A stretch of 64,000 bases of DNA from Methanolobus bombayensis (GTDB taxonomy: Archaea > Halobacteriota > Methanosarcinia > Methanosarcinales > Methanosarcinaceae): positions 248,001 through 312,000 of the forward strand of contig NZ_JAGGKD010000003.1 of NCBI RefSeq assembly GCF_017873415.1, given 5' to 3'. Positions within the stretch are counted from its first letter, which is position 1; each line of letters begins with the position of its first letter. A program made the translations under genes and the position numbers. Shown here one piece after another: positions 8,366 through 39,827 of the stretch. Under the pieces are notes generated by a model that saw nothing but the letters and a program-made list of their open reading frames with translations, was not told the origin of the DNA and searched no databases.

Positions 8366-9064
8366 CTAGAAATTTCCTTTGTAAACTTTCAGGCCGTTTT
8401 CAGAAACTGCAAGAATCCACGGTTCCATACTGTGTGCTGTGGAACGCATTTTCCTTACCCTCATGTATCTATTGGCAACATTACCCTTAAGATGCAGACC
8501 AAGTTCTATAATTCCATCTGCAAGATAACCTTCCATCCCTGTAGCAGGGTCAGAAATACCGGACAGTTTTTCTTCTTCCAGTATAAGGAAAGTTGTCAGT
8601 TTTTCACGTCTCATGGTCTCAAGGAATTTATACATTATTTTTCTCAGAATACGTGGATCCACATCAAGAAGAGAATATAGCGCGCCCAGAGAATCAATGG
8701 CTACACATGTACATTTCTCACCAATGTTTTCCCTGAACTGAACAATGTTTTCTTCCAGTATATTCAGGAGATCATCCGAAAATTCATCATACATTACACG
8801 ATAATCACTAAAATCCGATATATGGAGCTTCTTTGAAAGTTCGATTCCCATGCTGTCCATATTCTGAAGATGGTTTTCCTTACTTTGCTCAAAAGTTATG
8901 TAAAGGCCATACTCATCTTGCTCTTCCAGATAATTAGATAAGAGCTGGAAAGTGAAACCTGATTTAAGCGTGCCTGCCGCACCGGTAACCAACACTACAC
9001 TGTTTTTGGGTATATCTGTCTCAAAGACCTCATTCAAACCTTCTATGGTATCCACAAATCTCAT
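8366..9064 (-). CDS. KaiC-like RecA-fold protein with altered P-loop
   Basis: A 232-residue single-domain KaiC/RecA-family protein, the kind often annotated HTR-like in methanogens. The Walker A equivalent is GAAGTLKS (residues 28-35), where the canonical GxxGxGK[ST] glycine before Lys is Leu; the Lys and Ser remain. A Walker B-like segment VAIDSLG occurs near 120. The C-terminal GxxxYLADGIIEL and MRVRKMRSTAH segments are typical of KaiC-like proteins. Role presumed regulatory. Ribosome site GAGGGG precedes ATG 9064. It lies 206 bases downstream of a response regulator on the same strand, which suggests a signalling pair. Confidence 0.8.
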   Translation of the reverse strand: MRFVDTIEGLNEVFETDIPKNSVVLVTGAAGTLKSGFTFQLLSNYLEEQDEYGLYITFEQSKENHLQNMDSMGIELSKKLHISDFSDYRVMYDEFSDDLLNILEENIVQFRENIGEKCTCVAIDSLGALYSLLDVDPRILRKIMYKFLETMRREKLTTFLILEEEKLSGISDPATGMEGYLADGIIELGLHLKGNVANRYMRVRKMRSTAHSMEPWILAVSENGLKVYKGNF

Positions 9065-9270
9065 AATACCCCTCTTTACTTCTAGTTTTCAAAAAGAAGT
9101 AAGAATAATAGTGTAAAAATAATATATATCTTTAATGATGGTAAGATAATTAAATGACAATATATCTAAATAGAATCTATTCTTGACCTAATAATAATCT
9201 TTTATTGCACGCAATGATACAATTTTTCGCACATAATGCGCATAAATTTATCTGCAAATATTGTTTTATA

Positions 9271-10926
9271 TTATAAGTTCTCTGGGCCCACAACATCCCC
9301 GTTGACAGACCGCATCCATCTTTTAAGCAAATGGAATTCCTTCTTTTCCAGAACATCAGGATCAAGCTGAAGTAGCATTCGTGAATTTGATGCCATGATT
9401 GTGCCATTGGTCTGCTCCAGTAATTTGACAACAGAAAGGAAATCATTGTCAAGTATCAGGTATTCCAGACCATCCATAAGAACAACACCATCTTCAACCT
9501 TATTCACAAAATCAGCTATAGTGGGATGTATTCTGAAAAGCTCAGTGGAATCGATGGACTGCTGATCCGTTGTCTTGTTCTTGGTCAGCCACACGATTGG
9601 TGTTTTTGCAATACCATATATATTACGTATCTTATCAGGATTCATCCTTGTAATACAAAGTCCGGGTTTCCCGCTTTTCACAAGTTCGGAAAATGTTTTG
9701 TAGCTTGGCCCCTGTTCTTCGGAGCCTGAAAGATATATAAATCCACCTTCAAGTTCAACTTCCGTCTTGTTGGGGTCTTCTTCAATATCCTCAGTCAGAG
9801 GAGTGATAAAAAGACCTCTTAAACGTGAGCGATCCTGAAGAGTAATTATGAGACCTTCTTTTTTATTATCATCAGGAAGCAGAGAAGTTGAAACATTCAT
9901 TAGAACCTTTTCATCATGCTTGGTATAGAAAATCATTTCAAAATCTTTTTTCTCAGCGAATTCCAATAGGTTCGCATCATCCACAAATTCCCTGATAGGT
10001 TGTGCAATGATATCACCGACTTCATAACCCAGCAGGTCTGCAGCATTCTTATTAGCAGTAACTATTCGCTTTTTACTGTCAAGGGACAGTATGGCAATAG
10101 GTGATGCCTTCAAAAGATTATCAAGATATTCGTTGGCCCTTTTAATCTTTGATTCTGCTTCAAGTCTTTCAGTGATATCTTCACCCGAAACAAGCAGACC
10201 GTTCCTGTTTCCTTCAGAATCATACAGTACAATGTTGTTCCAGCTCATTATCCTTTTTTGTTTATTGCTGTTTAAGAAAGGAATTTCAAAATAACCCACA
10301 TATTCTGCTGATGTTGAAAATAGTTTTTCAAAGCCCTTTCTGGCGCTTTCCCTGAAAAGTTCCGGCACATAACTCTCAAACCAGTCGCTACCAAGAATCT
10401 CATCTTCCGGATAACCAAGAATCTCACATCCTTTCCTGTTGATAACCTTAACAATACCATTCTCGTCCAGCACAAAAAGCATTACTCCTGCAAGTTCCAG
10501 ATAATTCTGCGCCTGATCCCTCTCAGCTATCAATTCATCATGAAGTTTCTTAATCCTTAAAAGTGAGCCTACTCTAGTCTTGATCTCAAGACGGTCCAGA
10601 GGTTTTGTGAGAAAATCATCTGCGCCTGAGTTGATACCTTTTATGCGATCTTCAAGACTTGATAATGCTGTAACCATGATAATAGGAATGAAACGGGTCT
10701 TTTCAGAACTTTTCAGTATCTTACATACCTCATAACCGGTTATGTCAGGCATCATGAGGTCAAGTAATATTATATCAGGACTATGTTCCTCAACTTTTTC
10801 CAGTGCTTCTAAACCACCATATGCAGATATAATCTCATATTCATGCATGAGATAGGCATCCAGCAGCTTAACATTCATTGACTCATCGTCAACAATCAGC
10901 ACTTTACCTTTTTTTTGCTCTTCCAT
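9271..10926 (-). CDS. Response regulator with two PAS domains and DUF835 output
   Basis: About 551 residues. Domain order: receiver (about 5-125, with VDDE at the N-terminus and the phospho-Asp in IILLDLMMPD), PAS (about 135-255), PAS (about 260-375), then DUF835 (about 390-540; ITRMNPDKIRNIYG and WLTKNK segments are typical). No kinase domain and no DNA-binding domain is visible, so output is likely through protein contacts, perhaps with KaiC-like partners. ATG 10926 is preferred; an in-frame GTG at 10935 is possible and neither has a clear ribosome site. The partner histidine kinase is not in the window. Confidence 0.85.
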   Translation of the reverse strand: MEEQKKGKVLIVDDESMNVKLLDAYLMHEYEIISAYGGLEALEKVEEHSPDIILLDLMMPDITGYEVCKILKSSEKTRFIPIIMVTALSSLEDRIKGINSGADDFLTKPLDRLEIKTRVGSLLRIKKLHDELIAERDQAQNYLELAGVMLFVLDENGIVKVINRKGCEILGYPEDEILGSDWFESYVPELFRESARKGFEKLFSTSAEYVGYFEIPFLNSNKQKRIMSWNNIVLYDSEGNRNGLLVSGEDITERLEAESKIKRANEYLDNLLKASPIAILSLDSKKRIVTANKNAADLLGYEVGDIIAQPIREFVDDANLLEFAEKKDFEMIFYTKHDEKVLMNVSTSLLPDDNKKEGLIITLQDRSRLRGLFITPLTEDIEEDPNKTEVELEGGFIYLSGSEEQGPSYKTFSELVKSGKPGLCITRMNPDKIRNIYGIAKTPIVWLTKNKTTDQQSIDSTELFRIHPTIADFVNKVEDGVVLMDGLEYLILDNDFLSVVKLLEQTNGTIMASNSRMLLQLDPDVLEKKEFHLLKRWMRSVNGDVVGPENL

Positions 10927-10935
10927 CCCTTTCAC

Positions 10936-26967: not shown

Positions 26968-27279
26968 ACTCTAATTTTTATTAGATATTCCCTATTCCGG
27001 GTTGGAACATTTTTTTATTAATATATAACAAGAAATATTATATAGTAGCCGCAATATACATAAATTGCATAATTTGCACAGGCTGTATTTTTTAGCCAGA
27101 TGGAATATTATAATTTGGTTTACAAAATTACTATTTAAGTAAAAGTAATTAATGAACAATAAATTAATATATTATATAATATACTATATAATAACGTAGA
27201 AATACAATCCATATTCTACTGATATTGCGTGCAAATTTTGCACATGTTATGCAACACCAAACATGGGAGATATGAACAA
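26968..27279 (+). other. AT-rich leader/promoter region of the chemotaxis operon
   Basis: About 310 bases with no ORF of its own. Near 26995-27016 is a weak TTCC/GGAA hairpin with a T7 run that may end the upstream gene. Several TATA-like stretches occur (27035-27045, 27165-27195), so the exact promoter cannot be chosen. TTTGCACA occurs twice (near 27074 and 27237), the second within a palindrome. The ribosome site GGGAG is at 27265-27269. Confidence 0.5.
27229..27243. promoter_or_regulatory. Palindromic operator-like site upstream of cheY
   Basis: GTGCAAATTTTGCAC, seven-base arms around one central base. It lies 36 bases before the cheY ATG, between the likely promoter and the ribosome site. 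A half site TTTGCACA also occurs near 27073-27080. The binding factor is unknown. Confidence 0.45.
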
Positions 27280-27636
27280 ATGGTAAAAGTAATGATTGTG
27301 GATGATGCTGCCTTCATGCGCATGGTCATCAAAGACATATTAACAAAAAATGGTCATGAAGTGGTTGCCGAATGTGTTGACGGGCTTGATGCCGTAAACA
27401 AATATCCGGAAGTTAAACCGGAACTGGTCTTCATGGATATTGTTATGCCAAACATGGAAGGAATAGATGCACTTAAGAAGATCATGGAGATGGATCCTGG
27501 TGCAAAAGTTGTCATGTGTTCATCCATAGGACAGCAGTCAGTTGTCACAGATGCACTCAAAACAGGAGCACTTGACTTTATAGTTAAGCCTTTTGATGCA
27601 GCAAAGGTTCTCGAAGTAATTGGAAAAGTAATGTAA
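27280..27636 (+). CDS. cheY: CheY, chemotaxis response regulator
   Basis: Single receiver domain of 118 residues that carries the phosphoryl signal from CheA to the archaellum motor, in archaea through CheF-type adaptors. The acidic pocket is D8-D9, the phospho-Asp is D53 in FMDIVMPNMEG, followed by the CSSIGQ Ser/Thr switch and KPF lysine. ATG 27280 gives the compact domain; the upstream in-frame start at 27229 falls in the palindrome. First gene of the che operon, one base from cheB. Confidence 0.93.
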   Translation: MVKVMIVDDAAFMRMVIKDILTKNGHEVVAECVDGLDAVNKYPEVKPELVFMDIVMPNMEGIDALKKIMEMDPGAKVVMCSSIGQQSVVTDALKTGALDFIVKPFDAAKVLEVIGKVM

Positions 27637-27637
27637 C

Positions 27638-28747
27638 ATGACTATAAATGCACTTGTAGTCGATGACTCCGCACTCATGCGAAAGGTCGTCTCGGATATC
27701 CTGAAACAAGACCCGGAAATAAACGTAATAGCTACGGCCAGGAACGGTCTTGAAGCTGTTGAAAAGGTCGAACAGTTCAGGCCGGATGTGGTGACCTTGG
27801 ATATTGAGATGCCTGTACTTGACGGATTGCACGCTCTTGGATATATCATGAGTGAGTGCCCTACTCCAGTAGTCATGTTAACGGCGGTCGACTCCAGGTC
27901 TGCGGAAAGTACACTAAATGCATTCGAATATGGGGCAGTAGACTTTATACAAAAACCTTCGGGAAATATCAGTGTAAACATTGAGGACATCGCCGACAAT
28001 ATTCGCAAAAAAGTAAAGATGGCATCAAAAGTGGATCTGAAGAAACTAGGATTCATGGAAGAACACGTGAAAATTTCACGTGAGAAGAAGAGCAAACCAT
28101 TGCCATCCAAACCAAAGAGAAGAGTTGCTACAAAGAGTGCGGTTCATCATGCAAATGGTAAGATCGTTGCCATAGCATCCTCTACAGGTGGTCCTCGTGC
28201 TCTTGAACAGGTAGTTCCTAAATTACCAGGGAACCTGAAAGTTCCCGTAGTGATCGTCCAGCACATGCCTGCCGGATTTACTGCATCACTGGCACAGAGA
28301 TTAGACGGACAGTCTGCATTAACGGTCACCGAAGCAAAAGAAGGAGACGTACTTCATCCGGGACATGTCTACCTTGCGCCGGGAAATTATCACATGGAGA
28401 TCAAATCCACTGAAAAAGGTGGAATTTACCATGAGGTAGTAACACTTAATCAAAAACCCCGTGAACAGGGGGTCAGGCCCTGTGCAAACATCCTTTTCAG
28501 ATCACTTGTACCAATCTACGGAGCTAACATAGTCTCAGCGATCCTGACCGGAATGGGAGCTGACGGTGCCGATGGTGTGGAAGAGATAAAGAAAGCAGGA
28601 GGAAAAGTAATCACTGAAGATGAACGGTCATGTGTGGTATATGGTATGCCAAAAGCAGTCGTTCAGAGAGGACTTGCAGACAGCATTGTACCTCTGGAGA
28701 AAGTCTCCTCCGAAATAGTACGAATGCTGAATTCATCCGGTGATTAA
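27638..28747 (+). CDS. cheB: CheB, chemotaxis methylesterase/deamidase
   Basis: Removes methyl groups from chemoreceptors and deamidates them. 369 residues: receiver (1-120, phospho-Asp D55 in TLDIEMPVLDG), a basic linker (about 145-170) and the methylesterase domain. Catalytic residues are visible as Ser182 in ASSTGGPRAL, His209 in VQHMPAGF and the Asp of LTGMGADGADG. The ATG is one base after cheY stop. All catalytic residues are kept, so it should be active on receptors coded elsewhere. Confidence 0.96.
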   Translation: MTINALVVDDSALMRKVVSDILKQDPEINVIATARNGLEAVEKVEQFRPDVVTLDIEMPVLDGLHALGYIMSECPTPVVMLTAVDSRSAESTLNAFEYGAVDFIQKPSGNISVNIEDIADNIRKKVKMASKVDLKKLGFMEEHVKISREKKSKPLPSKPKRRVATKSAVHHANGKIVAIASSTGGPRALEQVVPKLPGNLKVPVVIVQHMPAGFTASLAQRLDGQSALTVTEAKEGDVLHPGHVYLAPGNYHMEIKSTEKGGIYHEVVTLNQKPREQGVRPCANILFRSLVPIYGANIVSAILTGMGADGADGVEEIKKAGGKVITEDERSCVVYGMPKAVVQRGLADSIVPLEKVSSEIVRMLNSSGD

Positions 28748-28798
28748 AATGTGTTTGGAAAATGTGAAGATCAGTATGATCTCAGGGTTGGTGTGACC

Positions 28799-30871
28799 AT
28801 GGATATGTCAGAATACAAAGAAATATTTAAAGCAGAATCAGAAGAACATCTGCAACAGCTTAACGATTCATTACTGGGACTTGAACAGAATCCCAATGAA
28901 CTTGAATACATCAATACAATGTTCCGTTCTGCACATACCTTGAAAGGAATGTCAGCAACGATGGGTTTTAACACCATTTCAGAACTCACTCATGAAATGG
29001 AAAACCTGATGGACATGGTAAGAAAATCGCAGGTAGAAGTGAGCAACAGTTTAATAGATATTCTGTTTGAATGCCTTGACACCCTCGAGGCACTTGTTGA
29101 AACCGTAGATAGTGAAGAAGAAGTGGACATTGGTCATCTTCAGGCAACACTTACACAGGCTATGGAAGGTTCAATGCCTGTGCAGGACATTAAAGGATCA
29201 GTAGCTTCAAGCATAGATACTATTGAAAATGAGATAAGTAAGGAAATACCAGAGGTACCTGAAGCAGAAGAAAACGAATCAAAGCCAGAGATTGTCCCTG
29301 TTGCAGATGATATAGAGTTATCTGATAATGATAAAAAAGCAATAAAGGAAGCTGTTAACGAAGGAAATCGTATTGTTTCAATGAAAGTAATCCTGGACGA
29401 ATCTTGTGTTCTGAAGTCTGCAAGGTCAACTCTTGTACTTATCAATGTTTCCAAGATGGGAGAAATAATAAAGTGTGTCCCTACGGAAGCAGAGCTTGAA
29501 GACGAGAAATTCGATCTTGACTTTACTGTAATATTTGCAACTAAATCTGCTGATGAAGATATAGTTGGCACAATAAAGAAGATATCGGAGATCAAGGACG
29601 TAATTCCTTCAACAATTGCAGAAAGTGATGGTAAACAGGAAGCAAAGAAAGAAAATGAAGAGAAGGAAGACTCAGAAGCTAAGAAAAGCAATTCAGCTGT
29701 AAAAAGACCTGATGCTGTCAAGAGCATTCAGAGTGTCAGGGTCAATATAGAGCGTCTTGATAATCTGATGAACCTTGTTGGAGAACTTATTATCAATAAG
29801 ATCCGACTTAACCAGCTTGCTTCCGATCTTAATGCAAAGGATCTGGACGAATCACTTGCAAACCTTGACCGCCTTACCAATGAGATCCAGACCGAAGTAA
29901 TGGAATCAAGAATGGTTCCTATCGACCAGATATTCAGCAGATTCCCGAGAATGGTCAGGGATCTTGCAAAGTCCGAAGGTAAGCAGATCAATCTTATTAT
30001 TGAAGGTAAGGAAATCGAACTTGACAGGACAGTGCTGGACGAGATAGGTGACCCATTGGTACACCTGCTCAGAAATGCTGTAGACCACGGTATCGAATCC
30101 GAGAAAGAACGTAAGGAACTGGGTAAACCTCCGGCAGGTATGGTTAGACTGGCGGCTTCACGTCAGAGAAACAGTGTACTAATTGAGGTTGAGGATGACG
30201 GTAAGGGAATGGATCCCGCTCATCTTAGAGATATAGCTGTAAAGAAAGGCATTATGACAAGAGATGAGGTTGACAAATTATCTGACAATGATGCCCTGAA
30301 CCTGATATTTATGCCTGGTTTCAGCGGAGCTAAGGTCGTTACCGACATTTCAGGAAGAGGTGTCGGAATGGATGCTGTCAAGACAAAGATTGAAGCACTT
30401 GGTGGAAGCGTAAAGATCAGTTCCGTGGTAGGCCAGGGCAGTATAATGAAACTACAACTGCCACTTACAGTTGCCATCATTCAATCACTCATGGTCACTG
30501 TGACCGGTGAAACATACGCAATACCTCTGGGTAATGTGATCCGTGATGTAGGAATAAAAGCCAGTGACATAAAAACAATAGAAGGAAAAGAAGTGATCAT
30601 GCTCAGGGGTGAAGTACTACCACTGTTAAGACTGCATGATGTACTTGAATGTCCTACTGAAGAGGAAGAAAAACAGAATCTCATTGTTGTGGTTGTTGAA
30701 AAGATGGGAAGCAACATAGGATTGGTAGTTGACGAACTCCTCGGTCAGCAGGAAGTAATCATCAAATCACTTGATAATAAACTTTTGAAAAACATGAAAG
30801 GATTTGCAGGTGCGACTATACTTGGAGATGGAAGTGTCGCACTGATCCTTGATATTGCTACATTGATCTAA
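28799..30871 (+). CDS. cheA: CheA, chemotaxis histidine kinase
   Basis: Central kinase, about 690 residues. P1 domain with the phospho-His H46 in SAHTLKG. P2-like region near 185-285 for CheY/CheB docking. A charged linker rich in Lys and Glu follows. Dimerisation P3 begins near NLVGELIINKIRL. ATPase P4 has the N box HLLRNAVDHGIE, G1 DDGKGMD and G2 GRGVGMDAV. P5 is the CheW-like regulatory domain. ATG 28799 matches the usual CheA start (MDMSEYKEIF); GTG 28751 upstream is an alternative. No cheW lies nearby. Confidence 0.95.
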   Translation: MDMSEYKEIFKAESEEHLQQLNDSLLGLEQNPNELEYINTMFRSAHTLKGMSATMGFNTISELTHEMENLMDMVRKSQVEVSNSLIDILFECLDTLEALVETVDSEEEVDIGHLQATLTQAMEGSMPVQDIKGSVASSIDTIENEISKEIPEVPEAEENESKPEIVPVADDIELSDNDKKAIKEAVNEGNRIVSMKVILDESCVLKSARSTLVLINVSKMGEIIKCVPTEAELEDEKFDLDFTVIFATKSADEDIVGTIKKISEIKDVIPSTIAESDGKQEAKKENEEKEDSEAKKSNSAVKRPDAVKSIQSVRVNIERLDNLMNLVGELIINKIRLNQLASDLNAKDLDESLANLDRLTNEIQTEVMESRMVPIDQIFSRFPRMVRDLAKSEGKQINLIIEGKEIELDRTVLDEIGDPLVHLLRNAVDHGIESEKERKELGKPPAGMVRLAASRQRNSVLIEVEDDGKGMDPAHLRDIAVKKGIMTRDEVDKLSDNDALNLIFMPGFSGAKVVTDISGRGVGMDAVKTKIEALGGSVKISSVVGQGSIMKLQLPLTVAIIQSLMVTVTGETYAIPLGNVIRDVGIKASDIKTIEGKEVIMLRGEVLPLLRLHDVLECPTEEEEKQNLIVVVVEKMGSNIGLVVDELLGQQEVIIKSLDNKLLKNMKGFAGATILGDGSVALILDIATLI

Positions 30872-30885
30872 AATGAGGGAATAAT

Positions 30886-31503
30886 ATGGCGGAAATGGAC
30901 GAGATGGCAAAAGGAGCATTTCAGGAGGCTGGAAACATTGGAATGGGACATCTGGCCACATCACTTTCTAAAATGGTGAACAGGGATGTGAAAATAGACA
31001 TTCCTGTGGTTGAAATGCTCAGCCTTGATGACATAATAGCAAAAAGCAATGTAGAAGGGAAAAATAAGAGTGTTGTTGGAATACATCTTCATATTACAGG
31101 AGACGTATCCGGAGGAACGCTCATACTACTTCCAAAATTCTCTGCACTGTCTTTTTCAGATCTTCTTATGAAAAAGCCAATAGGAACAACAAATAAAATT
31201 GAAGAACAACAGGTTAAAAAACTCCGTGAAATGGGAGTAAATCTCTGTAGTGCCTACATGCGTGTTGTCAATGAATTCCTGGGAATAAATCTCAGCATTG
31301 GAGATCCAAGCATGGAAGTCAACCTGGAAGGTGTAGGTGACTTCATTCAGAAAGAGATTGGAGAACTTGCCGATGAATTCATCGTTGTAAAAGGTGAATG
31401 TCTGATACCTTCTACAAACTCAAAGAACGAATTTAACATGCTTTTCGAACCCGGAGCTACAGATATAATTATGGCAGCTATCATGAAGAAGATGATGGGA
31501 TAA
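30886..31503 (+). CDS. cheC: CheC paralogue 1 (first phosphatase site intact, second altered)
   Basis: CheC/CheX/FliY-family CheY-P phosphatase-like protein, 205 residues. The first ExxN site is intact at E14/N17 (QEAGNIGMG). At the second helix the pattern is REMGVN, so the Asn position is Val118 and the site is probably dead. Encoded between cheA and the FtsA-like gene, with 14 bases to cheA and one base to the next gene. Likely a phosphatase with one active centre or a scaffold for CheD. Confidence 0.85.
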   Translation: MAEMDEMAKGAFQEAGNIGMGHLATSLSKMVNRDVKIDIPVVEMLSLDDIIAKSNVEGKNKSVVGIHLHITGDVSGGTLILLPKFSALSFSDLLMKKPIGTTNKIEEQQVKKLREMGVNLCSAYMRVVNEFLGINLSIGDPSMEVNLEGVGDFIQKEIGELADEFIVVKGECLIPSTNSKNEFNMLFEPGATDIIMAAIMKKMMG

Positions 31504-31504
31504 A

Positions 31505-33625
31505 ATGAACATTGCCCATTTTGCTCTGGATATAGGAACAAGAACTGTTGTGGGACTTGTCACAGAAGATGGGGACCTCAACATAAAAGCTGCATGTGTT
31601 AAAGAGCACAATGAGCGCAGCATGCAGGATGGGCAGATCCATGATGTCGAAAAGGTTGCAAAAGTTGTAGATGAGGTCAGAAAAGATCTGGAAAAACAAA
31701 CAGGATCAAAATTATCCAAAGTAGCAGTGGCCGTTGCAGGCAGAGCACTTAAGACATCCAAGGTAAAAGTTTCAGTTGAGATGCCTTACAGGGAAATTAG
31801 CCGTGAGGACATTTCTGAACTGGAATTTGAAGCTGTTGCAAGAGCTGGCAATCAACTTGGTAGTGGAAAGGGTTTTAATTGTGTTGGTTACTCGGTTATA
31901 AGCTACGAACTTGATGGAGAAGGTATTTCCAATATAGTCGGACAAAAAGGAAGTTCGGTTTCTGTGGAAGTGCTTGCTACTTTTCTTCCGGAAGCTGTTA
32001 TCAGCAGTATGTTTGCCGTACTTGACAGATGTGGCCTTGAAGCATCAAGTGTTACACTTGAACCAATAGCAGCTCTTAATGTCGCTATTCCCTCTGATAT
32101 GCGCAAACTCAATATTGCGCTTGTAGATATCGGCGCCGGAACATCTGATATTGCCATTACGGATAATGGAACAGTGATAGGCTATGGAATGGTCCCTGAG
32201 GCAGGGGATGAAATTACTGATTTTATCTGTGACTATTATCTTGTTGATTTCAAGAAAGGAGAAAACATCAAACGTTCCCTGAACGATATGGAAATGATCG
32301 AGCTGGAAGATATTTTTGGTGTTACAACTGAAATACCGGTAAGCCAGGTAATTAGTGATATTGAAGCTGAAATTGACAAACTGTCACAGCATATTGCTGA
32401 AGAGATCCTTACAATTAATAACAAAAAACCGAGTGCTGTGGCTCTGGTCGGAGGTGGATCACAAACCGCAGGACTTAAAGAACATTTATCGAAACATCTT
32501 GATATACCAGTACAGAGAATCGGGTCACGTCTTCCAAAGCAGATAGAAGGACTGGCTGATGGCACCGGAATGGTCAACGGTGCAGACATGATAACTCCAC
32601 TTGGCATAGCACGCATGGCTATCCTTGATGAAGGAATCGAATTTATTGAACTGAATGTCAATGGTCTGGAAATACACCTGATGGACATAAACGGTCTTTC
32701 TGTCATGGATGCACTTGTGGCTGCAAAGGTCACACGCCTTTATCCGCGTCCTGGTATGGCCCTTAGCCTTACTGTCAATTCAGATTTCAGGACAGTTGAA
32801 GGTGACATGGGAGTGCATGCAAAGATACTGCTTAATGGAAAGAAAGCAAGTCTTGGAGATCCGGTAATAAATGGTTCTTCCATTGAATTCACAGCACCTG
32901 TTGACGGTAAAGATGCACATCTTAAAGTGAAAGACCTCATGGAGATCGAGGGAACAAAAAGCGTGCACAGGATAAATGTCAATGGAAACGAGAAAGAGTT
33001 CAGACCTTTTATCAGTATCAATGGCAAACCAGCATCTTTTGAAGATACAATACCTGACAGATCAGAGGTGATAATCCGTGCACCAAATCTTGAAGACGTA
33101 CTTGAGATGGAATACGGACACGAAGAAAATGAAATGATCTCTGTGACCGTGAACAATAAACCAAGGTATCTGAACAGGATAAATTACACATTCAGATTGA
33201 ATGGCGATGTAGTGGAGAGAGATAAGCTTCATGAATGTCATGTAAGTGATGATGACATAATTATTATTGAAAAATCAGTGTTTGAATACAGAATAGAAAA
33301 CGTTCTTGGCAAACCTGAAGAAGGCAAAAGGATCAGTGTACTTCTCAATGGTGATGAAGTTACATTCGACGGATCAGTGCCCCAAATTGTCCTCAATGGA
33401 AAAAGGGCATCTCTTTTTGATAAGATAAATGATGGAGATAACATCATATTTAAAATGGGGGAGGATGCGGACCCGATACTTTCGGATCTGTTCGAATTTA
33501 TGGATATTAAAAAGGAAGAACTTGTTGGCAAGAGAATGAGACTTCTTGTGAACAATGTTCCGGCCAGATTTACAACCCCACTGAGGGATGGAAACAATGT
33601 GACAATAGAATTTGCAGAGGTATAA
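31505..33625 (+). CDS. FtsA/PilM-type actin-fold ATPase with five C-terminal beta-grasp-like repeats
   Basis: A 706-residue protein of the actin/Hsp70 ATPase superfamily. PHOSPHATE1 is ALDIGTRTVVGLV (7-19), PHOSPHATE2 is LVDIGAGTSDIAI (206-218) and ADENOSINE is ALVGGGSQTAGLKEHL (313-328). An SHS2-like insertion precedes PHOSPHATE2, as in FtsA and PilM. Residues about 437-706 hold five units of the form LNGKxAxLxDxIxDGDxIxF (near 437, 502, 562, 627 and 678), resembling ThiS/ubiquitin-type beta-grasp repeats. No membrane helix. Such long FtsA-domain proteins are, from memory, typical of anaerobic Firmicutes. The gene lies one base after cheC1 and three before cheR, so it belongs to the chemotaxis operon. 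Role unknown. Confidence 0.85.
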   Translation: MNIAHFALDIGTRTVVGLVTEDGDLNIKAACVKEHNERSMQDGQIHDVEKVAKVVDEVRKDLEKQTGSKLSKVAVAVAGRALKTSKVKVSVEMPYREISREDISELEFEAVARAGNQLGSGKGFNCVGYSVISYELDGEGISNIVGQKGSSVSVEVLATFLPEAVISSMFAVLDRCGLEASSVTLEPIAALNVAIPSDMRKLNIALVDIGAGTSDIAITDNGTVIGYGMVPEAGDEITDFICDYYLVDFKKGENIKRSLNDMEMIELEDIFGVTTEIPVSQVISDIEAEIDKLSQHIAEEILTINNKKPSAVALVGGGSQTAGLKEHLSKHLDIPVQRIGSRLPKQIEGLADGTGMVNGADMITPLGIARMAILDEGIEFIELNVNGLEIHLMDINGLSVMDALVAAKVTRLYPRPGMALSLTVNSDFRTVEGDMGVHAKILLNGKKASLGDPVINGSSIEFTAPVDGKDAHLKVKDLMEIEGTKSVHRINVNGNEKEFRPFISINGKPASFEDTIPDRSEVIIRAPNLEDVLEMEYGHEENEMISVTVNNKPRYLNRINYTFRLNGDVVERDKLHECHVSDDDIIIIEKSVFEYRIENVLGKPEEGKRISVLLNGDEVTFDGSVPQIVLNGKRASLFDKINDGDNIIFKMGEDADPILSDLFEFMDIKKEELVGKRMRLLVNNVPARFTTPLRDGNNVTIEFAEV

Positions 33626-33628
33626 AAA

Positions 33629-34453
33629 ATGTTAAAACCTGTTGAGAAAAAAGATGATGAGTACTACCAGACACTGAAAAACCTTATCCAGAAAAATCTT
33701 GGATTCAACTCAAACCAGTACAAGGATTCTCACTTTAAAAGGAGGATAGATGTCAGATTGCGCGCAACAAATACCAGTACATACAAAGAGTATGTGGAAT
33801 TGCTGCAAAGTGATCGAAACGAATATCCTGAGCTTATGGAAACACTGACAGTTAATGTTACCAACTTCTTCAGGAATCCTGAAGTCTATGATATTGTAGA
33901 AAAGGAAATACTTCCAGCCATCATCAAATCGAAAACAGGTGGCCTGCGTTCCATAAGAATATGGAGTGCCGGATGTTCCATCGGTGTTGAAGCATATTCC
34001 CTGGCCATGCTTTTCCATAACTTACTTGGAAAAGAATTCGGCAAATATAACATCAAGATAACCGGAACAGACATTGATAGAGAAAGTCTTCTAAAAGCCC
34101 AGAGTGGCGTTTATTCTGAAGCAGAAATGAAAGATGTAAGACCTGCTTTCCTTAAAAAATATTTTACAAAAGAAGAAGGTAAATACCTCATTTCAGATGA
34201 ACTCAAGAAGATTACTCAATTTAAAAAGCAGGATTTAATATCAGGTCCGAAAATGAGCGGATTTGATGCTGTATTCTGTAGAAATGTCACAATTTACTTC
34301 CAGAAAGAATTGCAGGAGCAACTCTATATGGACTTTTACAACGCCCTTGGAAAAGACGGATTCTTTGTGATGGGTAAGACAGAGACACTTATAGGACCGT
34401 CAAAAGACAAATTCAAATCATACAATTCCAAGGAGAGAATCTACCAGAAATGA
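33629..34453 (+). CDS. cheR: CheR, chemotaxis methyltransferase
   Basis: SAM-dependent methyltransferase that methylates receptor glutamates. 274 residues with the N-terminal helical domain (FKRRIDVRLRATN, TVNVTNFFRN) and the C-terminal SAM domain. The SAM motif reads WSAGCSIGVEAYSLAM where the usual form is GCSTGEEPYS, so three positions differ. TGTDID and FCRNVTIYF are otherwise standard. Three bases after the FtsA-like gene. Probably active, though the motif drift deserves note. Confidence 0.92.
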   Translation: MLKPVEKKDDEYYQTLKNLIQKNLGFNSNQYKDSHFKRRIDVRLRATNTSTYKEYVELLQSDRNEYPELMETLTVNVTNFFRNPEVYDIVEKEILPAIIKSKTGGLRSIRIWSAGCSIGVEAYSLAMLFHNLLGKEFGKYNIKITGTDIDRESLLKAQSGVYSEAEMKDVRPAFLKKYFTKEEGKYLISDELKKITQFKKQDLISGPKMSGFDAVFCRNVTIYFQKELQEQLYMDFYNALGKDGFFVMGKTETLIGPSKDKFKSYNSKERIYQK

Positions 34454-34503
34454 TGTTGATGAACTAAAAGCAAGCATCTTATACTTAATTAGGGAGTCTA
34501 CAA

Positions 34504-35118
34504 ATGAAATATAAGATATCAAACCTGACCGAAATGCAGGTGAGTGCCTTAAGGGAAATTGTGAACATTGGAGTTGGGAACGCTGTTACCTCGCTTTCAA
34601 AAATGATAGAAACAGGAGTTAAGATAGAGGTTCCTGATTTTAAAGTAGAGTTGATCGAAGATGTTCCGGAGGTGCTGGGAGGACCTGCTAATGTTGTATC
34701 AGGCGTCATCATGCAGGTCACAGGTGATATCGACGGCTACATCATAATGATGCTTCCTGAAGAAGCAGCCCGGACAATTTGTGAAATAATAACACATGAA
34801 GAGAACACGGATATTCTGACTCCTATAAACCAATCACTGATTGAAGAAGTCGGACATATCCTGGCAGGCTCGTATGTAAGTTCATTGTCTGATTTTCTGA
34901 GTCTGAATATTAAGATTTCAACACCAATGCAGACATTTGACATGCTCGGTGCCATCATAGACCATATATTGATCGAAATGAGCCAGAAAGTAGAGTATGC
35001 ACTTCTTTTTGACACATTGTTCATACTCCAGGGCGATAGAACAGATGGATTTTTCCTTACGATGTTCGATCCTGATTCCATGGATACTATAATCGGGCGT
35101 GTTGATAAAATGATCTGA
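34504..35118 (+). CDS. cheC: CheC paralogue 2 (second site Asn replaced by His)
   Basis: CheC-family protein of 204 residues. The first site is intact (E18/N21 in LREIVNIGVG). The second is E115-V-G-H118 where Asn is expected, so only one functional phosphatase centre is predicted. The strand segment VTGDIDGYIIMMLP is typical of the family. Located 50 bases after cheR and 14 bases before cheC3. Confidence 0.86.
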   Translation: MKYKISNLTEMQVSALREIVNIGVGNAVTSLSKMIETGVKIEVPDFKVELIEDVPEVLGGPANVVSGVIMQVTGDIDGYIIMMLPEEAARTICEIITHEENTDILTPINQSLIEEVGHILAGSYVSSLSDFLSLNIKISTPMQTFDMLGAIIDHILIEMSQKVEYALLFDTLFILQGDRTDGFFLTMFDPDSMDTIIGRVDKMI

Positions 35119-35132
35119 CAGGAGAGATATGA

Positions 35133-35744
35133 ATGAATATAGTACTTGATAAGTTCTACTATGATGCACTGAATGAAGTGGGAAACATAGGAATGGGGAA
35201 TGCAACAACCGCACTATCACAGCTTGTAAGCAAGAGGATAGAGGTTAGTGGCTCGTCCCTGACTTTGCTTAAAGCCAAGGATATTGCCGAGAACCAGAAT
35301 GATGAGAGGGTCGGAGCTATAGTCAGAGTAATGGGGGATATGAATGGAGGATTCATACTTGTTCTTGGCAAGAAACAATCTGAAATTCTGGCTGATATGC
35401 TTCTTGAAGATAGTTCCGGTGAAGATACTTACATGAAAATATCAGCTTTTATTGAAGTTGCTAATATACTTGCAGGTAGTTACTATAATTCACTCTCAAA
35501 ATTCCTTAATCTTTCAATAATACCTTCAATACCCACAATATCTGAAGGTGATTCAGATGAGATATTCGAAAAAGCAAAAAAACATATGAGCGGTAAGATA
35601 GACCATATCTTTGGCCTGACAACATTATTTGAGATCCATGGTGAGGATGAGTACCACAGTTTGAGCGGAGATATGTACATGCTCCTGGATACAGCTTCTT
35701 TGCAGTCAATTATCGACAGGATAGAAGAGATGCGTACGAGATAA
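35133..35744 (+). CDS. cheC: CheC paralogue 3 (both phosphatase sites intact)
   Basis: CheC of 203 residues with both ExxN sites present: E15/N18 (NEVGNIGMG) and E108/N111 (IEVANILAG). This is the only one of four copies here with two full sites, so it is the best candidate for the main CheY-P phosphatase. It directly precedes cheD (2-base gap), its known regulatory partner. Ribosome site AGGAGAG precedes ATG 35133. Confidence 0.9.
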   Translation: MNIVLDKFYYDALNEVGNIGMGNATTALSQLVSKRIEVSGSSLTLLKAKDIAENQNDERVGAIVRVMGDMNGGFILVLGKKQSEILADMLLEDSSGEDTYMKISAFIEVANILAGSYYNSLSKFLNLSIIPSIPTISEGDSDEIFEKAKKHMSGKIDHIFGLTTLFEIHGEDEYHSLSGDMYMLLDTASLQSIIDRIEEMRTR

Positions 35745-35746
35745 AT

Positions 35747-36220
35747 ATGATAATAGTGGGAATGGCTGACAGCGCTGTTGTAAAAAAACCTGAAAAGCTC
35801 ACCACCCTCGGCCTGGGATCCTGTGTGGGTATTTCATTATATGATAAAAGTACAGGTGTTGGCGGCATGGTGCATATTATGCTTCCAAGCATAGAGAGTG
35901 CAAGATCAAAGGAAAACATTGCAAAATTTGCAGATACAGGTATCCCTTCACTTGTTGATGACATGGTGGATGCAGGTGCATATAAACATCGCACCACTGC
36001 CAAAATAGCTGGTGGTGCAAGCATGTTCTCATTCAATTCAAATACCCAGCTCAATATTGGGGAAAGAAACGTAACAGCTACTAAAAATACATTGGATGGA
36101 CTGAAAATACCCATTGTTGCTGAAGATACCGGACAGAACTATGGACGTACTATTGTGCTTGACACTGAAAACGGAGAACTTACTGTCAAGAGCGCACTTA
36201 AAGGTATAAAAATATATTAA
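35747..36220 (+). CDS. cheD: CheD, receptor deamidase and CheC activator
   Basis: Deamidates chemoreceptor glutamines and binds CheC to stimulate its phosphatase activity. 157 residues. The catalytic Cys26 lies in LGLGSCVGISLYD and His43 in GMVHIMLP, with the third residue of the triad in the RTTAKIAGGA region. Directly behind cheC3. All recognisable catalytic positions are kept. Confidence 0.94.
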   Translation: MIIVGMADSAVVKKPEKLTTLGLGSCVGISLYDKSTGVGGMVHIMLPSIESARSKENIAKFADTGIPSLVDDMVDAGAYKHRTTAKIAGGASMFSFNSNTQLNIGERNVTATKNTLDGLKIPIVAEDTGQNYGRTIVLDTENGELTVKSALKGIKIY

Positions 36221-36271
36221 TATATACAGCGTAATAATATATCAAATGGATGAATAATAGGTGACAGCAGG

Positions 36272-37303
36272 ATGTTAACTCCGGAAATAACTCTAACACA
36301 TATCATTTTTGTATCCATATCATTAGCTTGTGGATTGGCAGCTATATACTTCTGGGTGAAGGTTTATTTTGAAACTAAAAAAGGATCTATTGCCTGGTTA
36401 CTTCTTGCACTTACAGCCATTTTCCTTATAACTTCTTCAATATTCCCATCAATTGCTATTAGCTCCCAGGATACAGATATTACTGAAATGGTATTCCTTT
36501 TCCTCGGTTTCTGGAGTGCTGTGTACACCAGTATATTTGCAGCAGCCGGTTTTTTGATGTTCCAGGCATTTAAGACAATTCCCCGGGAAAATCTTGGAAA
36601 TTTCCTGATAGAAGGAATGGTATTTACAAAACCAGTCAAGGCAGAAGATGACATGGAAGAACTGCCGGAAGTAGAACAGGTATCTACACTTCTCAACAGG
36701 TCCACACTTATCGAATACACTCCTAAAACCAGATACGAGGATTCCGTAATAGAGATATGCCTTCGTCTTTACGGTGAAATGGTGAATACTGTGTTGGTAT
36801 CTACACAACCGCGTACTGAAATGTACAAGGAGAAGATCGGAGACCTGATGGATATAGGCGCAATGAAGTTTATTGAAATATCCTCTACAACTAAACATGT
36901 TAATGATGAGGATGGAATAATCAAGTTACCTTCAGATGAGATGGGGAAATTCTTTGAACTCACAAGTAAGCTGCCTGAAGGATGTGCGGTTATCTTTGAA
37001 CCTATAACCCAATTGATACTTACAGATGGAGAACAAAAGACCTATGAATTCATTTCTGAAATGGTAGAGCGTTTCTCTGCCAGCCAATTACTTCTTGTGG
37101 GCATGATCAACAAAGAAGCTCATGACGATCAAACAGTTTCAAGGTTTGAAGGACTTTTCCTTAATCTGGCTGAAGAAAAGGATGCTAAGATCCGTGTTGT
37201 AAAAGGTGGAAAGGAAGAGTACGTAAGATTCTACGTTGGAGAGAAATTCTTCATGGAACAGGATGTAGAGGTAATACTTGAAGAAAAAAAGGTTGAGTTT
37301 TAA
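36272..37303 (+). CDS. Three-helix membrane protein with cytoplasmic signalling-like domain
   Basis: A 343-residue protein. Three hydrophobic helices at about 8-29, 39-58 and 70-95, with an acidic linker near 125-140. The cytoplasmic part (about 145-343) begins STLIEYTPKTRYEDS and has VLVSTQPRT and a CAVIFEPITQLIL strand, which recalls P-loop-less KaiC/RecA-like domains of archaeal signalling proteins; the family is not certain. The ATG follows AGGTGA, 51 bases after cheD. It shares the TAATG overlap with cheC4, so it is a true operon member. It might localise the che proteins to the membrane. Confidence 0.65.
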   Translation: MLTPEITLTHIIFVSISLACGLAAIYFWVKVYFETKKGSIAWLLLALTAIFLITSSIFPSIAISSQDTDITEMVFLFLGFWSAVYTSIFAAAGFLMFQAFKTIPRENLGNFLIEGMVFTKPVKAEDDMEELPEVEQVSTLLNRSTLIEYTPKTRYEDSVIEICLRLYGEMVNTVLVSTQPRTEMYKEKIGDLMDIGAMKFIEISSTTKHVNDEDGIIKLPSDEMGKFFELTSKLPEGCAVIFEPITQLILTDGEQKTYEFISEMVERFSASQLLLVGMINKEAHDDQTVSRFEGLFLNLAEEKDAKIRVVKGGKEEYVRFYVGEKFFMEQDVEVILEEKKVEF

Positions 37304-37929
37304 TGGACAGACAGCTTGACAATTTCCTGACCGATGCATTCAAGGAAATCGGCAGTATAGGCATGGGAAATGCTACTACATCCCTTTCTAAACTCATTGA
37401 GAAAAGGGTGCAGTTGAATCTTTCCGACGCACGTTTGTTTGAACCTTCTGCCATTGTTGATATGATACCCGACTCAATAACAATGACAAGTATTATGATT
37501 CCGGTACATGGAGATCTTAATGGTCTTACAATGTTGCTTTTTGAGTTTGGTAATGCTGTTTATCTTAGTAATCTGCTGCTCCAGAGTATTGAACATGATG
37601 ATGATCCGAGTATCTATGAATCAGCACTACTTGAAACAGGAAACATTATTGCCGGATCCTACCTGAACTCCCTTTCATCATTCCTTAACCTCAAGATAAT
37701 GCATTCAGTCCCGGATATTAGTATCGGTACAATTGATGACATACTGGAAAAAGGGCTCAATAAGATGCAGGAAGAACCTGAGGGAATACTGAATATTGAA
37801 ACAATGTTCATGGTCTACTCCTCAGAAAAGGATGTTGGAGCTGGTACTATCTATGGAGATATGTTCTTGCTGCTGGATTCAGAATCACTTGACAGGATGC
37901 AGAATTCCATACAGGACATGTTGAAATGA
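37303..37929 (+). CDS. cheC: CheC paralogue 4 (first site Asn replaced by Ser)
   Basis: CheC-family protein of 208 residues. The first site is E15-I-G-S18, so the Asn is lost; the second is intact at E111/N114 (LETGNIIAG). It is thus the mirror image of copies 1 and 2. The start overlaps the stop of the membrane protein gene (TAATG), pointing to coupled synthesis of the two. Confidence 0.86.
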   Translation: MDRQLDNFLTDAFKEIGSIGMGNATTSLSKLIEKRVQLNLSDARLFEPSAIVDMIPDSITMTSIMIPVHGDLNGLTMLLFEFGNAVYLSNLLLQSIEHDDDPSIYESALLETGNIIAGSYLNSLSSFLNLKIMHSVPDISIGTIDDILEKGLNKMQEEPEGILNIETMFMVYSSEKDVGAGTIYGDMFLLLDSESLDRMQNSIQDMLK

Positions 37930-37966
37930 ATTCCTAATTATTAATCAGATCTTACGGTTGAACTAT

Positions 37967-38413
37967 ATGAAAAATATCTGGACTTATCATCTGGAAAAAT
38001 CCAACGCCAATGACAATGATGGCGATAGTACATTCTCACAGATGCTCCATTCGTTTGTAAGAACAGGAAATGATGAGAAGATGCATACAGGCATTTCCAT
38101 GGGGATCTCACAAAAGAATAAAAATACTGGTAATATTGATGTCAACAAAGCAGAAACCCAATTATGTACCTGGATGGCAGAAAGTCATGAAGCATACGAA
38201 CTCGGAATAGATTCATCTAAAAGAGACAGTGTACGGCTTATTATGGCTGAAGATGGAGGATTATCCCTCAGATATGATGTGGCTGGAGAAACACCTTTTG
38301 AAATGTCAGTAAGATCTGAAGAAGAAGCCATGGATATTATCGAGGAAGATAATGCCACTACTGAACAGCTTTATCCGGATAATCCGGAACTAAAGTGGAT
38401 TAAAATAACATAA
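37967..38413 (+). CDS. Small acidic protein, unknown, end of che operon
   Basis: A 148-residue soluble acidic protein, not recognised. The first 60 residues are polar and probably flexible (NANDNDGDST). The second half (about 95-148) looks folded, with GGLSLRYDVAG, and ends in PDNPELKWIKIT. It follows cheC4 by 37 bases with no obvious terminator between, so it may be part of the operon. ATG 37967 is preferred to the in-frame start at 37958; the ribosome site is weak. Confidence 0.5.
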   Translation: MKNIWTYHLEKSNANDNDGDSTFSQMLHSFVRTGNDEKMHTGISMGISQKNKNTGNIDVNKAETQLCTWMAESHEAYELGIDSSKRDSVRLIMAEDGGLSLRYDVAGETPFEMSVRSEEEAMDIIEEDNATTEQLYPDNPELKWIKIT

Positions 38414-38527
38414 ATTTAATATATATACATTAATTCAATGGTAAAGAATAAAAACTAGTAAAACAATTAATATATAAATATTGTATAATAACTAACTGGA
38501 CTCAAGAGATAAAGGAGATCTATAATT
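38414..38527 (+). promoter_or_regulatory. Likely promoter and RBS for the Cys/His paralogue pair
   Basis: AT-rich gap with TTAATATATAAATATTG near 38467-38483 as a TATA candidate and AAAGGAGAT at about 38511-38519 as a ribosome site. This suggests that the paralogue pair is a separate transcript from the che operon. Confidence 0.5.
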
Positions 38528-39154
38528 ATGATGGACATTGCAATTTACTCACTTGTTGATGACATGGTCAGCAAGGCCGGCACTGAGGGTGTCGTTGAAT
38601 ACTGGCTTCGTGTAGGTGAGAGCTATGCAGAAAGAATGGGAAAAGAAGCATATGTAGGATGGCCTGCCTTTAATGTAGCAATGAAGGATGGAAGAACATC
38701 ACTTACAGTTGAAGGTGCTGTTAATGTCCAGACTGACCTTGCTATAACTGACAAGGATGGGGATGTCATTGGTTATGTCTATGCTTTAAAAGTGTGCCCA
38801 ATGGCACCTACCATGGGAAGATACATTTCAAGGATCGGACCGATACCTGACTCTGACACCGATGTAGCAGACAGCTACAATAACCGTGTAAGAGATTCAG
38901 CTGTTTCAAATTACTGCATTACCCACCAGAAATTCAGGGAAGTTGCAGCTAATAACATTACCGTTGCAAAGCAGGCTCTTGAATGCCTTCATCTTGCAAA
39001 CAAGGGAATGACCGGTGAAGTGAAAATGGTACAGGAAAACCTTGCAAGGATAAATGTGGATGAGAGACACATTAAAAGTATTCTGCGCAATGCTTCCTGC
39101 GTGTTCGCACTTATTGTGAAGGGCAAGAGTGCAGGCGAGGAAATAATTGACTGA
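38528..39154 (+). CDS. Cys/His-motif protein, paralogue A (unknown function)
   Basis: A 208-residue soluble protein paralogous to the next gene. The shared core is VCP near residue 89, YISRIG, then SAVSNYCITHQKFR near 126-139 and a late SC near 190. The spaced Cys and His residues suggest a bound metal, haem or other cofactor. There is a loose likeness to ATC-hydrolase-type folds (CP ... C..H), not enough to name it. Two adjacent ATG codons (38528, 38531) follow AAAGGAGAT. Its stop is 10 bases before paralogue B. Position after the che operon hints at a signalling or sensing role. Confidence 0.6.
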   Translation: MMDIAIYSLVDDMVSKAGTEGVVEYWLRVGESYAERMGKEAYVGWPAFNVAMKDGRTSLTVEGAVNVQTDLAITDKDGDVIGYVYALKVCPMAPTMGRYISRIGPIPDSDTDVADSYNNRVRDSAVSNYCITHQKFREVAANNITVAKQALECLHLANKGMTGEVKMVQENLARINVDERHIKSILRNASCVFALIVKGKSAGEEIID

Positions 39155-39164
39155 TGGTGATCAT

Positions 39165-39770
39165 ATGGCTGAAAATATAGAATCCAATCCTTTTGTCGAT
39201 GTTTCAGTATATCTGTTCTTTGAGGATATTTCTGATAAACAGGGTGTTGAAGGTTTCACCAATTACATGGTTGGCCAGGCCGAATCACTGGCTAAATCTG
39301 TCCCTGAGGAAGAATACCAGACATGGGATGATTTTGCAAATGCCGTTACGAACGGTGAATCTGTCCTATCATCTTTTGAACATATAGGACAGATCAGCAA
39401 ATATGGTTTTGTTACAAAGGTATGCCCATTTTCCAAAGCTATTAGAGAATATATAAAAAGAATAGGTAACTTCAACCCGGTTCACATGGAAGCAACCGAT
39501 CATTTCAATCACACCATACAGCCTTCCGCTGCACACAGTGCATGTATGATGCACCAGACTTACCGTAAGGAAGTAGCTAAGAGAATAAAGATCGGAGGGA
39601 AACCACTCCAGTATGCTCAGATAGCAGCAAAGGCATACACCGGAAAGATAGCACTTCCTCCTGAATCATGGAAGAAGGTATTACTGGAAAAAGCAGGAAT
39701 TACCGAAACCCAGGGATTCATGGAAATGAGGGAGAACAGCTGTCTGTATCTTCTTTACGTTGAAGAATAA
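39165..39770 (+). CDS. Cys/His-motif protein, paralogue B (unknown function)
   Basis: A 201-residue paralogue of the preceding gene, sharing KVCP, YIKRIG, D-x-F-N, SAAHSACMMHQTYR and AKAYTG. Cysteines and the HQ pair align with paralogue A, while the rest has diverged strongly, so the pair is an old duplication that has kept the same putative binding site. ATG 39165 follows GGTGATC; the longer frame from TTG 39147 overlaps the upstream stop. No known family assigned. Confidence 0.6.
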   Translation: MAENIESNPFVDVSVYLFFEDISDKQGVEGFTNYMVGQAESLAKSVPEEEYQTWDDFANAVTNGESVLSSFEHIGQISKYGFVTKVCPFSKAIREYIKRIGNFNPVHMEATDHFNHTIQPSAAHSACMMHQTYRKEVAKRIKIGGKPLQYAQIAAKAYTGKIALPPESWKKVLLEKAGITETQGFMEMRENSCLYLLYVEE

Positions 39771-39827
39771 GAATAGAACTTTTTAGAGCAGTAAAGTATA
39801 TACTGCTCTAAAACTGATTTTCTATTA

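Follow-up and report, generated by a model that had tools for sequence, protein, structure and literature searches.

In the analyzed window, which comprises 64,000 nucleotides of the Methanolobus bombayensis genome (contig NZ_JAGGKD010000003.1, positions 248,001 to 312,000), a chemotaxis operon was found that contains four CheC genes. CheC is an enzyme as well as a binding switch, and evolution seems to have parted both roles into separate genes of one operon. With moderate confidence we assign copy 2 as the CheC coupled to CheD in feedback, copy 3 as an accessory phosphatase with two sites, and copies 1 and 4 as single-site specialists. The parts belong to known families, and their combination is unusual.

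The operon is a tightly spaced run of plus-strand genes (27229-39770 of the window) in the order cheY, cheB, cheA, copy 1, actin-fold gene, cheR, copy 2, copy 3, cheD, MEM, copy 4, o151, o208 and o207. The intergenic spacing ranges between -8 and 51 bases throughout, with the sole exception of 114 bases ahead of o208. The cheY gene (27229-27636) was named from its sequence and BLAST matches in relatives. It is 71-99% identical in those copy 1/copy 4-type loci of the same family that contain cheY, and its annotated start may lie upstream of the real start. The cheB gene (27638-28747) was assigned from the ORF and conserved synteny. For cheA (28751-30871), the NCBIfam CheA models matched with up to 558 bits, yet below their cut-offs; a second likely start is the ATG near position 28796, as the ORFs of relatives align from residue 15. 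The cheR gene (33629-34453) was identified by PF01739 and PF03705, and cheD (35747-36220) by PF03975 and by alignment with Bacillus CheD. The residues GSC...VH, which we take to be catalytic, are present in the window CheD. No cheW was found in the che cluster in the ORF list of the window, and the genome contains 11 chemoreceptor-domain matches over the cut-off. At the 3' end, o151 (37958-38413, 151 aa) is fast-evolving, with 32-66% identity in relatives, and the Pfam search assigned it to no family over the cut-off. It is followed by o208 (38528-39154), an uncharacterized Cys-containing protein, and its paralogue o207 (39165-39770, starting with the ATG at 39165 or a TTG at 39147), which shares 28% identity with o208. 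A terminator-like hairpin of 13 pairs (39781-39813, plus strand), identified by consensus match only, is located 3' of o207 and likely marks the end of the transcription unit.

Copies 1 to 4 (30886-31503, 34504-35118, 35133-35744 and 37303-37929, respectively) were identified by PF04509 and by residue alignment. They scored 29.1, 68.2, 58.1 and 52.5 bits compared to the curated cut-off of 22, which places all four in the CheC family. Genome-wide, PF04509 gave six matches, every one inside these four genes. Copies 2, 3 and 4 also exceeded the cut-off of the CheX model (PF13690), but the CheC model scored higher, and solved CheC structures were matched far better than CheX ones. A profile of the four copies matched T. 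maritima CheC (1xkr) in the PDB set at 9.7e-39. Fold family and ExxN motifs are shared with the CheC of B. subtilis and T. maritima (PF04509; 1xkr, 2f9z). Identities within the window are 37% between copies 3 and 4 and 29% between copies 2 and 3.

An earlier note on this DNA had listed the state of both ExxN sites in each copy, and these states were reproduced exactly in the alignment of the four proteins, with no Asn at the positions given as lost. In copy 1, site 1 is intact (E14/N17) and site 2 is lost (E115/V118). Copy 2 likewise retains site 1 (E18/N21) and carries E115/H118 at site 2. Both sites are intact in copy 3 (E15/N18 and E108/N111), and copy 4 has lost site 1 (E15/S18) and retains site 2 (E111/N114). 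The designation of a CheC with two ExxN centers therefore fits copy 3 only. By their sequences, copies 1, 2 and 4 are still CheC homologues despite the loss of one Asn each. B. subtilis and T. maritima have one CheC with both sites, whereas the window has four, of which three are without one Asn and three without the CheD contact residue.

For the analysis of conservation, che loci from 25 further Methanolobus genomes and 14 loci from other genera of the family were used, and orthologues were typed by the best BLAST match. CheC is present in 26 of 27 Methanolobus genomes; the remaining one (G073) has no che locus. In copy 1, the first pair is E/N in all 34 sequences and the second Asn is replaced by V, L, I, M or S in all 34. 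Copy 2 retains the first pair in 39 of 39 sequences, and its second position is His in 32, Asn in 6 and Gln in 1. This substitution is labile: 4 of the 26 sequences of the genus and 2 of the 13 from outside it have Asn. His may be near-neutral here since Asn occurs in 6 of 39. All 24 copy 3 sequences are from Methanolobus; 23 are full-length and keep both pairs, and one is truncated and keeps the second. The first position of copy 4 is Ser in 28, Gly in 3, Thr in 1 and Asn in 1 of 33 sequences, and the second Asn is kept in 32 of 33 (exception: L109). Within the genus, V, L or I replaces the lost Asn of copy 1, and Ser that of copy 4. The codons vary, as in the first Asn of copy 1 (AAC 12, AAT 14) and the Ser of copy 4 (AGT 6, AGC 19). 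Since the retained residues are invariant in 26 genomes of the genus while their codons vary, the pattern is not due to chance or sequencing error. By its conservation across these sequences, it is an old pattern. The contig of one Methanolobus locus (L091) stops after cheD, so that copy 4 was not scored there. BLAST typing of the loci detected no copy 4 in L104 and no copy 1 in L110.

The presence of copy 3 varies. It is absent from L085 and L088 and truncated in L089 and is hence missing or truncated in 3 of 26 genomes of the genus. In L089 (7090-7341, minus strand) an internal deletion fuses the start of site 1 to site 2, leaving a single-site ORF of 83 aa. In the loci affected, copy 2 carries His (L088, L089) or Asn (L085). 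Copies 1, 2 and 4 are present in the loci L102, L103, L105 and L106 (g14), and none of them is dual-site. In L109 (G006), the second Asn is gone from every CheC found, with Leu in copy 1, His in copy 2 and Ser in copy 4, and copy 4 has lost the Asn of both sites. A locus without copy 3 is thus workable, as neither L109 nor the g14 loci have a dual-site CheC. The earlier note had described the lost sites as complementary. Strict complementarity is not required, since no copy found in L109 has an Asn at site 2.

The second feature that distinguishes the copies is the residue of the CheD interface. In B. subtilis, a D149K exchange in CheC leads to poor CheD binding and near-null behavior at normal phosphatase activity; the activity of CheC is about 6% of that of FliY, and its binding role outweighs catalysis (accessible part of PMC3513319). 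The D149 column was placed via an annotated CheC from Bacillus velezensis, whose residue 149 is the Asp in SLDMFG. In the window, this column is Asp in copy 2 (in FDMLGAIID), Gly in copies 3 and 4 and Asn in copy 1, and the Asp-Met of the interface helix of the B. subtilis and T. maritima proteins is common to copy 2. The Asp was found in 39 of 39 copy 2 and in 0 of 24 copy 3 sequences (Gly in 24 of 24). Copy 4 never has Asp (0 of 33; Gly in 32, Glu in 1), and copy 1 has Asn in 30 and Asp in 4 of 34 sequences, with a different helix sequence. Taken as the sign of CheD binding, the Asp singles out copy 2, although a single residue represents a protein interface only poorly. On the side of CheD, M101 and F102 are located at the CheC interface (same source, PMC3513319), and the Met-Phe pair is kept in the window CheD according to the alignment with Bacillus CheD. 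Outside the genus, copy 2 is the neighbor of cheD in 13 of 13 loci that have cheD.

For comparison, 49 CheC domains from outside the family were read in 30 phylum-wide loci. The first Asn is intact in 16 of them, and 14 of these combine two complete Glu/Asn sites with the Asp. The other 33 domains include haloarchaeal-type two-domain proteins, and 32 of them have no Asn at site 1. Among these 33, the Asp is found in all 12 second domains of two-domain CheC, but in only 4 of the 21 other domains. For Hbt. salinarum, the two-domain CheC3 was described to bind CheD and CheC1 not to bind it, which agrees with this Asp pattern; CheC2, which lies outside the residue comparison, also binds CheD (accessible part of PMC3579733). 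The several CheC of Hbt. salinarum (CheC1, CheC2, CheC3) with different partners resemble the window in this respect, as far as this source covers them, and by tree they are not orthologous to the window copies. The loss of one site is common in haloarchaeal-type CheC as well, the two-domain copy carrying the Asp. There, however, it is site 1 that is lost in nearly all domains read, whereas the window copies lose different sites.

A CheC tree was calculated from 79 sequences selected from those collected (quick IQ-TREE run, SH-aLRT support only). Copy 1 forms a single clade (support 100) with a stem of 2.12 changes per column followed by short branches. Copy 2 clusters with the lone CheC of che2-like loci (98), with L112 apart, and copy 3 is the sister of copy 4 (98). 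Copy 3 is thus a relative of copy 4 that was found only in Methanolobus in the sampled genomes. On a locus tree of 35 rows, the minimum number of changes was four for the Asn state of copy 2, three for the presence of copy 3 and four for the actin-like gene. The loci L113 and L114, Methanosarcina by inference, contain a copy 2 orthologue with the same His as their single CheC; no copy 1, 3 or 4, actin-like gene, MEM or o207/o208 was detected in these loci. This corresponds to the che2 region of Methanosarcina, which likewise has no CheF and in which CheC adjoins CheD (accessible part of PMC2666748).

CheF was described as the adaptor between CheY-P and ArlCDE (accessible part of PMC9126983), and a 2009 paper, in its accessible part, names the che2 regions of Methanosarcina as the only archaeal che regions without CheF (PMC2666748). 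Hbt. salinarum has CheF, whereas the window locus is without it. A CheF profile built from four family genomes matched only L112 among the che loci examined and no copy 1/copy 4-type locus. The match is the CheF in the che locus of G002 (L112, 12590-13390). It was missed by the family-wide PF04283 search, and the absence of CheF is therefore claimed for the loci only. Proteins of about 400 aa with weak PF04283 (CheF-arch) matches over the cut-off occur in four genomes of the genus (L071-L074, e.g., L072 559-1761, minus strand), encoded apart from the che operon, upstream of a KaiC-like gene. They are perhaps distant CheF relatives, to which profile comparison gave a probability of 18%. In the window's genome, a gene set resembling arlCDE-G-F-H-I-J was named by eye (L119, 5935-12423). 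A second Arch_fla_DE protein of 972 aa is encoded away from the archaellum operon (L121, 8769-11687), and two Arch_fla_DE genes are present in most genomes of the genus.

The pair o208/o207 shares the residues CP, C..HQ and SC and represents the most conserved proteins of the operon. Neither matched a Pfam or NCBIfam family, and the structure model of o208 has a mean pLDDT of 36.1. Where found in the family, o208 is 81-100% identical. Strong matches were obtained in 18 of 60 family genomes, and these 18 are the genomes that have a copy 1 and/or copy 4 locus (16 loci were read; the locus type of G019 and G031 was inferred). Among 246 genomes of the phylum, o208 was found in 15, all within the family, plus one weak match. 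Archaellum-type Arch_fla_DE genes are present in all 18 o208 genomes. An operon without CheF and with two unnamed conserved proteins is relevant to the route by which chemotaxis acts on the archaellum in this family. It is conceivable, if improbable, that Methanolobus and four related genera perform a CheF-free archaellar taxis in which o207/o208 together with copies 1 and 4 would form a substitute adaptor-phosphatase, positioned in two genera by a Bacillota-derived actin-fold protein.

From these data, we infer activities, partners and locations of the four copies, which appear to be specialized on two independent axes, namely the choice of the ExxN site that is retained and the retention or loss of the CheD-binding helix. 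Copy 2 would be the ancestral che2-type CheC and is the predicted partner of CheD. With one site intact and His at the other, it may bind CheY-P chiefly to pull CheD off the receptors, resulting in feedback adaptation. Copy 3, which has both sites and no CheD-binding Asp, is a candidate accessory, stand-alone CheY-P phosphatase. Copies 1 and 4, neither of which has the CheD contact, would be single-site members of old origin. Translation of copy 4 is probably coupled to that of the putative membrane protein, and its product may work at the membrane. Copy 1 would have been re-shaped on a long branch and then frozen, acting on CheY or another receiver at a fixed location; a role on CheB is suggested by analogy.

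Three other explanations were considered. The earlier note had proposed split duties with copy 3, the neighbor of cheD, as the main phosphatase and a possible tie of the copies to the actin-like protein and the membrane protein. In the extended form of this proposal, copy 3 would be activated by CheD and the other three copies would be weaker single-site helpers or scaffolds. The dual-site state, which in the window genome is found only in copy 3, and the distance of 2 bases between copy 3 and cheD speak for it. However, the D149 equivalent is missing from every copy 3 sequence, cheD adjoins copy 2 elsewhere, and copy 3 is limited to Methanolobus, where it is not even present in full in all genomes, which makes this explanation very unlikely. 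Copy 3 as CheD partner was rejected on the interface residue and the synteny, and ancestrally, copy 3 is unlikely to have been the main phosphatase. A division of duties itself is plausible and consistent with the divergence of the copies into lineages that are conserved, maintained separately and different in their active-site states; the CheD duty of copy 3 is not supported.

A neutral decay of a redundant family, with random loss of sites and a pattern without functional meaning, is unlikely as well. It is supported by the alternation of His and Asn at site 2 of copy 2 (at least four changes by the locus tree), by the loss or truncation of copy 3 in some genomes and by the lack of both Asn in copy 4 of L109. 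The retained Glu and Asn are nevertheless invariant in the genus despite codon variation, the states of copies 1 and 4 hold across genera apart from a few exceptions, and copy 1 is the most conserved CheC (80-93% identity to the window within the genus). It is also doubtful that copies 1 and 4 serve as a switch or scaffold replacing the missing CheF and carry CheY-P to the archaellum motor like the bacterial FliY/FliM. Copies 1 and 4 were seen solely in the locus type without CheF, archaellum-type genes are present in these genomes, and the haloarchaeal CheC2 binds CheF (accessible part of PMC3579733). But each of the two copies conserves one intact ExxN site, which would be unneeded in a pure scaffold, a CheF-domain protein is encoded elsewhere in at least four genomes of the genus, and one CheF is known to have escaped the genome-wide search. 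Compared to these, the assignment of copy 2 to CheD, with copy 3 as accessory phosphatase, is preferred.

The gene between copy 1 and cheR (31505-33625) encodes an FtsA/PilM-like actin-fold protein of 706 aa, with PF11104, PF14450 and PF06723 over the cut-off. Its C terminus shows weak ThiS-like (beta-grasp) similarity, and PF02597 exceeded its cut-off on the C-terminal piece. PF14450 and PF11104 are shared with the FtsA/PilM family, whereas the protein has about twice the model length, is closest to Bacillota proteins and scores far below the NCBIfam cut-offs (FtsA, TIGR01174: 118.7 bits, equivalog cut-off 175.85; PilM, TIGR01175: 63 bits, subfamily cut-off 133). In six Methanolobus records the protein is 71-84% identical and the gene order is the same. 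Among 60 family genomes, it was found, outside Methanolobus, in a single genome of a different genus (G013); two additional matches, with E values near 1e-3, were assigned to different actin-fold proteins. When one genome per species was scanned, which covers close relatives only, 39 loci were obtained, 6 from Methanolobus and 33 from Bacillota, in which full-length relatives were found. Because 33 of 39 loci belong to Bacillota, a horizontal transfer of the gene, in either direction, is likely. By eye, the ORF lists of three of the 33 Bacillota loci (L133, L135, L155) contain no obvious che genes, and motA/motB-like genes are located near the actin-like gene in L135. The gene is missing in L085 and internally deleted in L088, both of which are without copy 3, and it is present in L101 and L089 without a full copy 3. 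The association of copy 3 with the actin-like gene therefore comprises four independent pairs only.

MEM (36272-37303), a putative membrane protein named from its sequence, combines a hydrophobic helical region at the N terminus with a soluble domain at the C terminus, the latter weakly similar to DUF7504/DUF7090; all its Pfam matches are below the cut-off. The structure model is of low confidence (mean pLDDT 47.5). The start of copy 4 overlaps the stop of MEM by one base, and this overlap is the sole evidence that ties MEM to CheC.

The literature search found no paper joining Methanolobus with CheC, and phrases for multiple CheC gave nothing relevant among the matches listed; a 2008 review of CheC-type phosphatases lies outside the coverage. 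The four copies would represent a natural separation-of-function series, and assays could be run on it, as strains of this archaeal genus are in culture. Elsewhere in the window (8366-10935, minus strand), a KaiC-like gene was found near a receiver-PAS gene with a DUF835-like end (by eye), which may be another sensory module.
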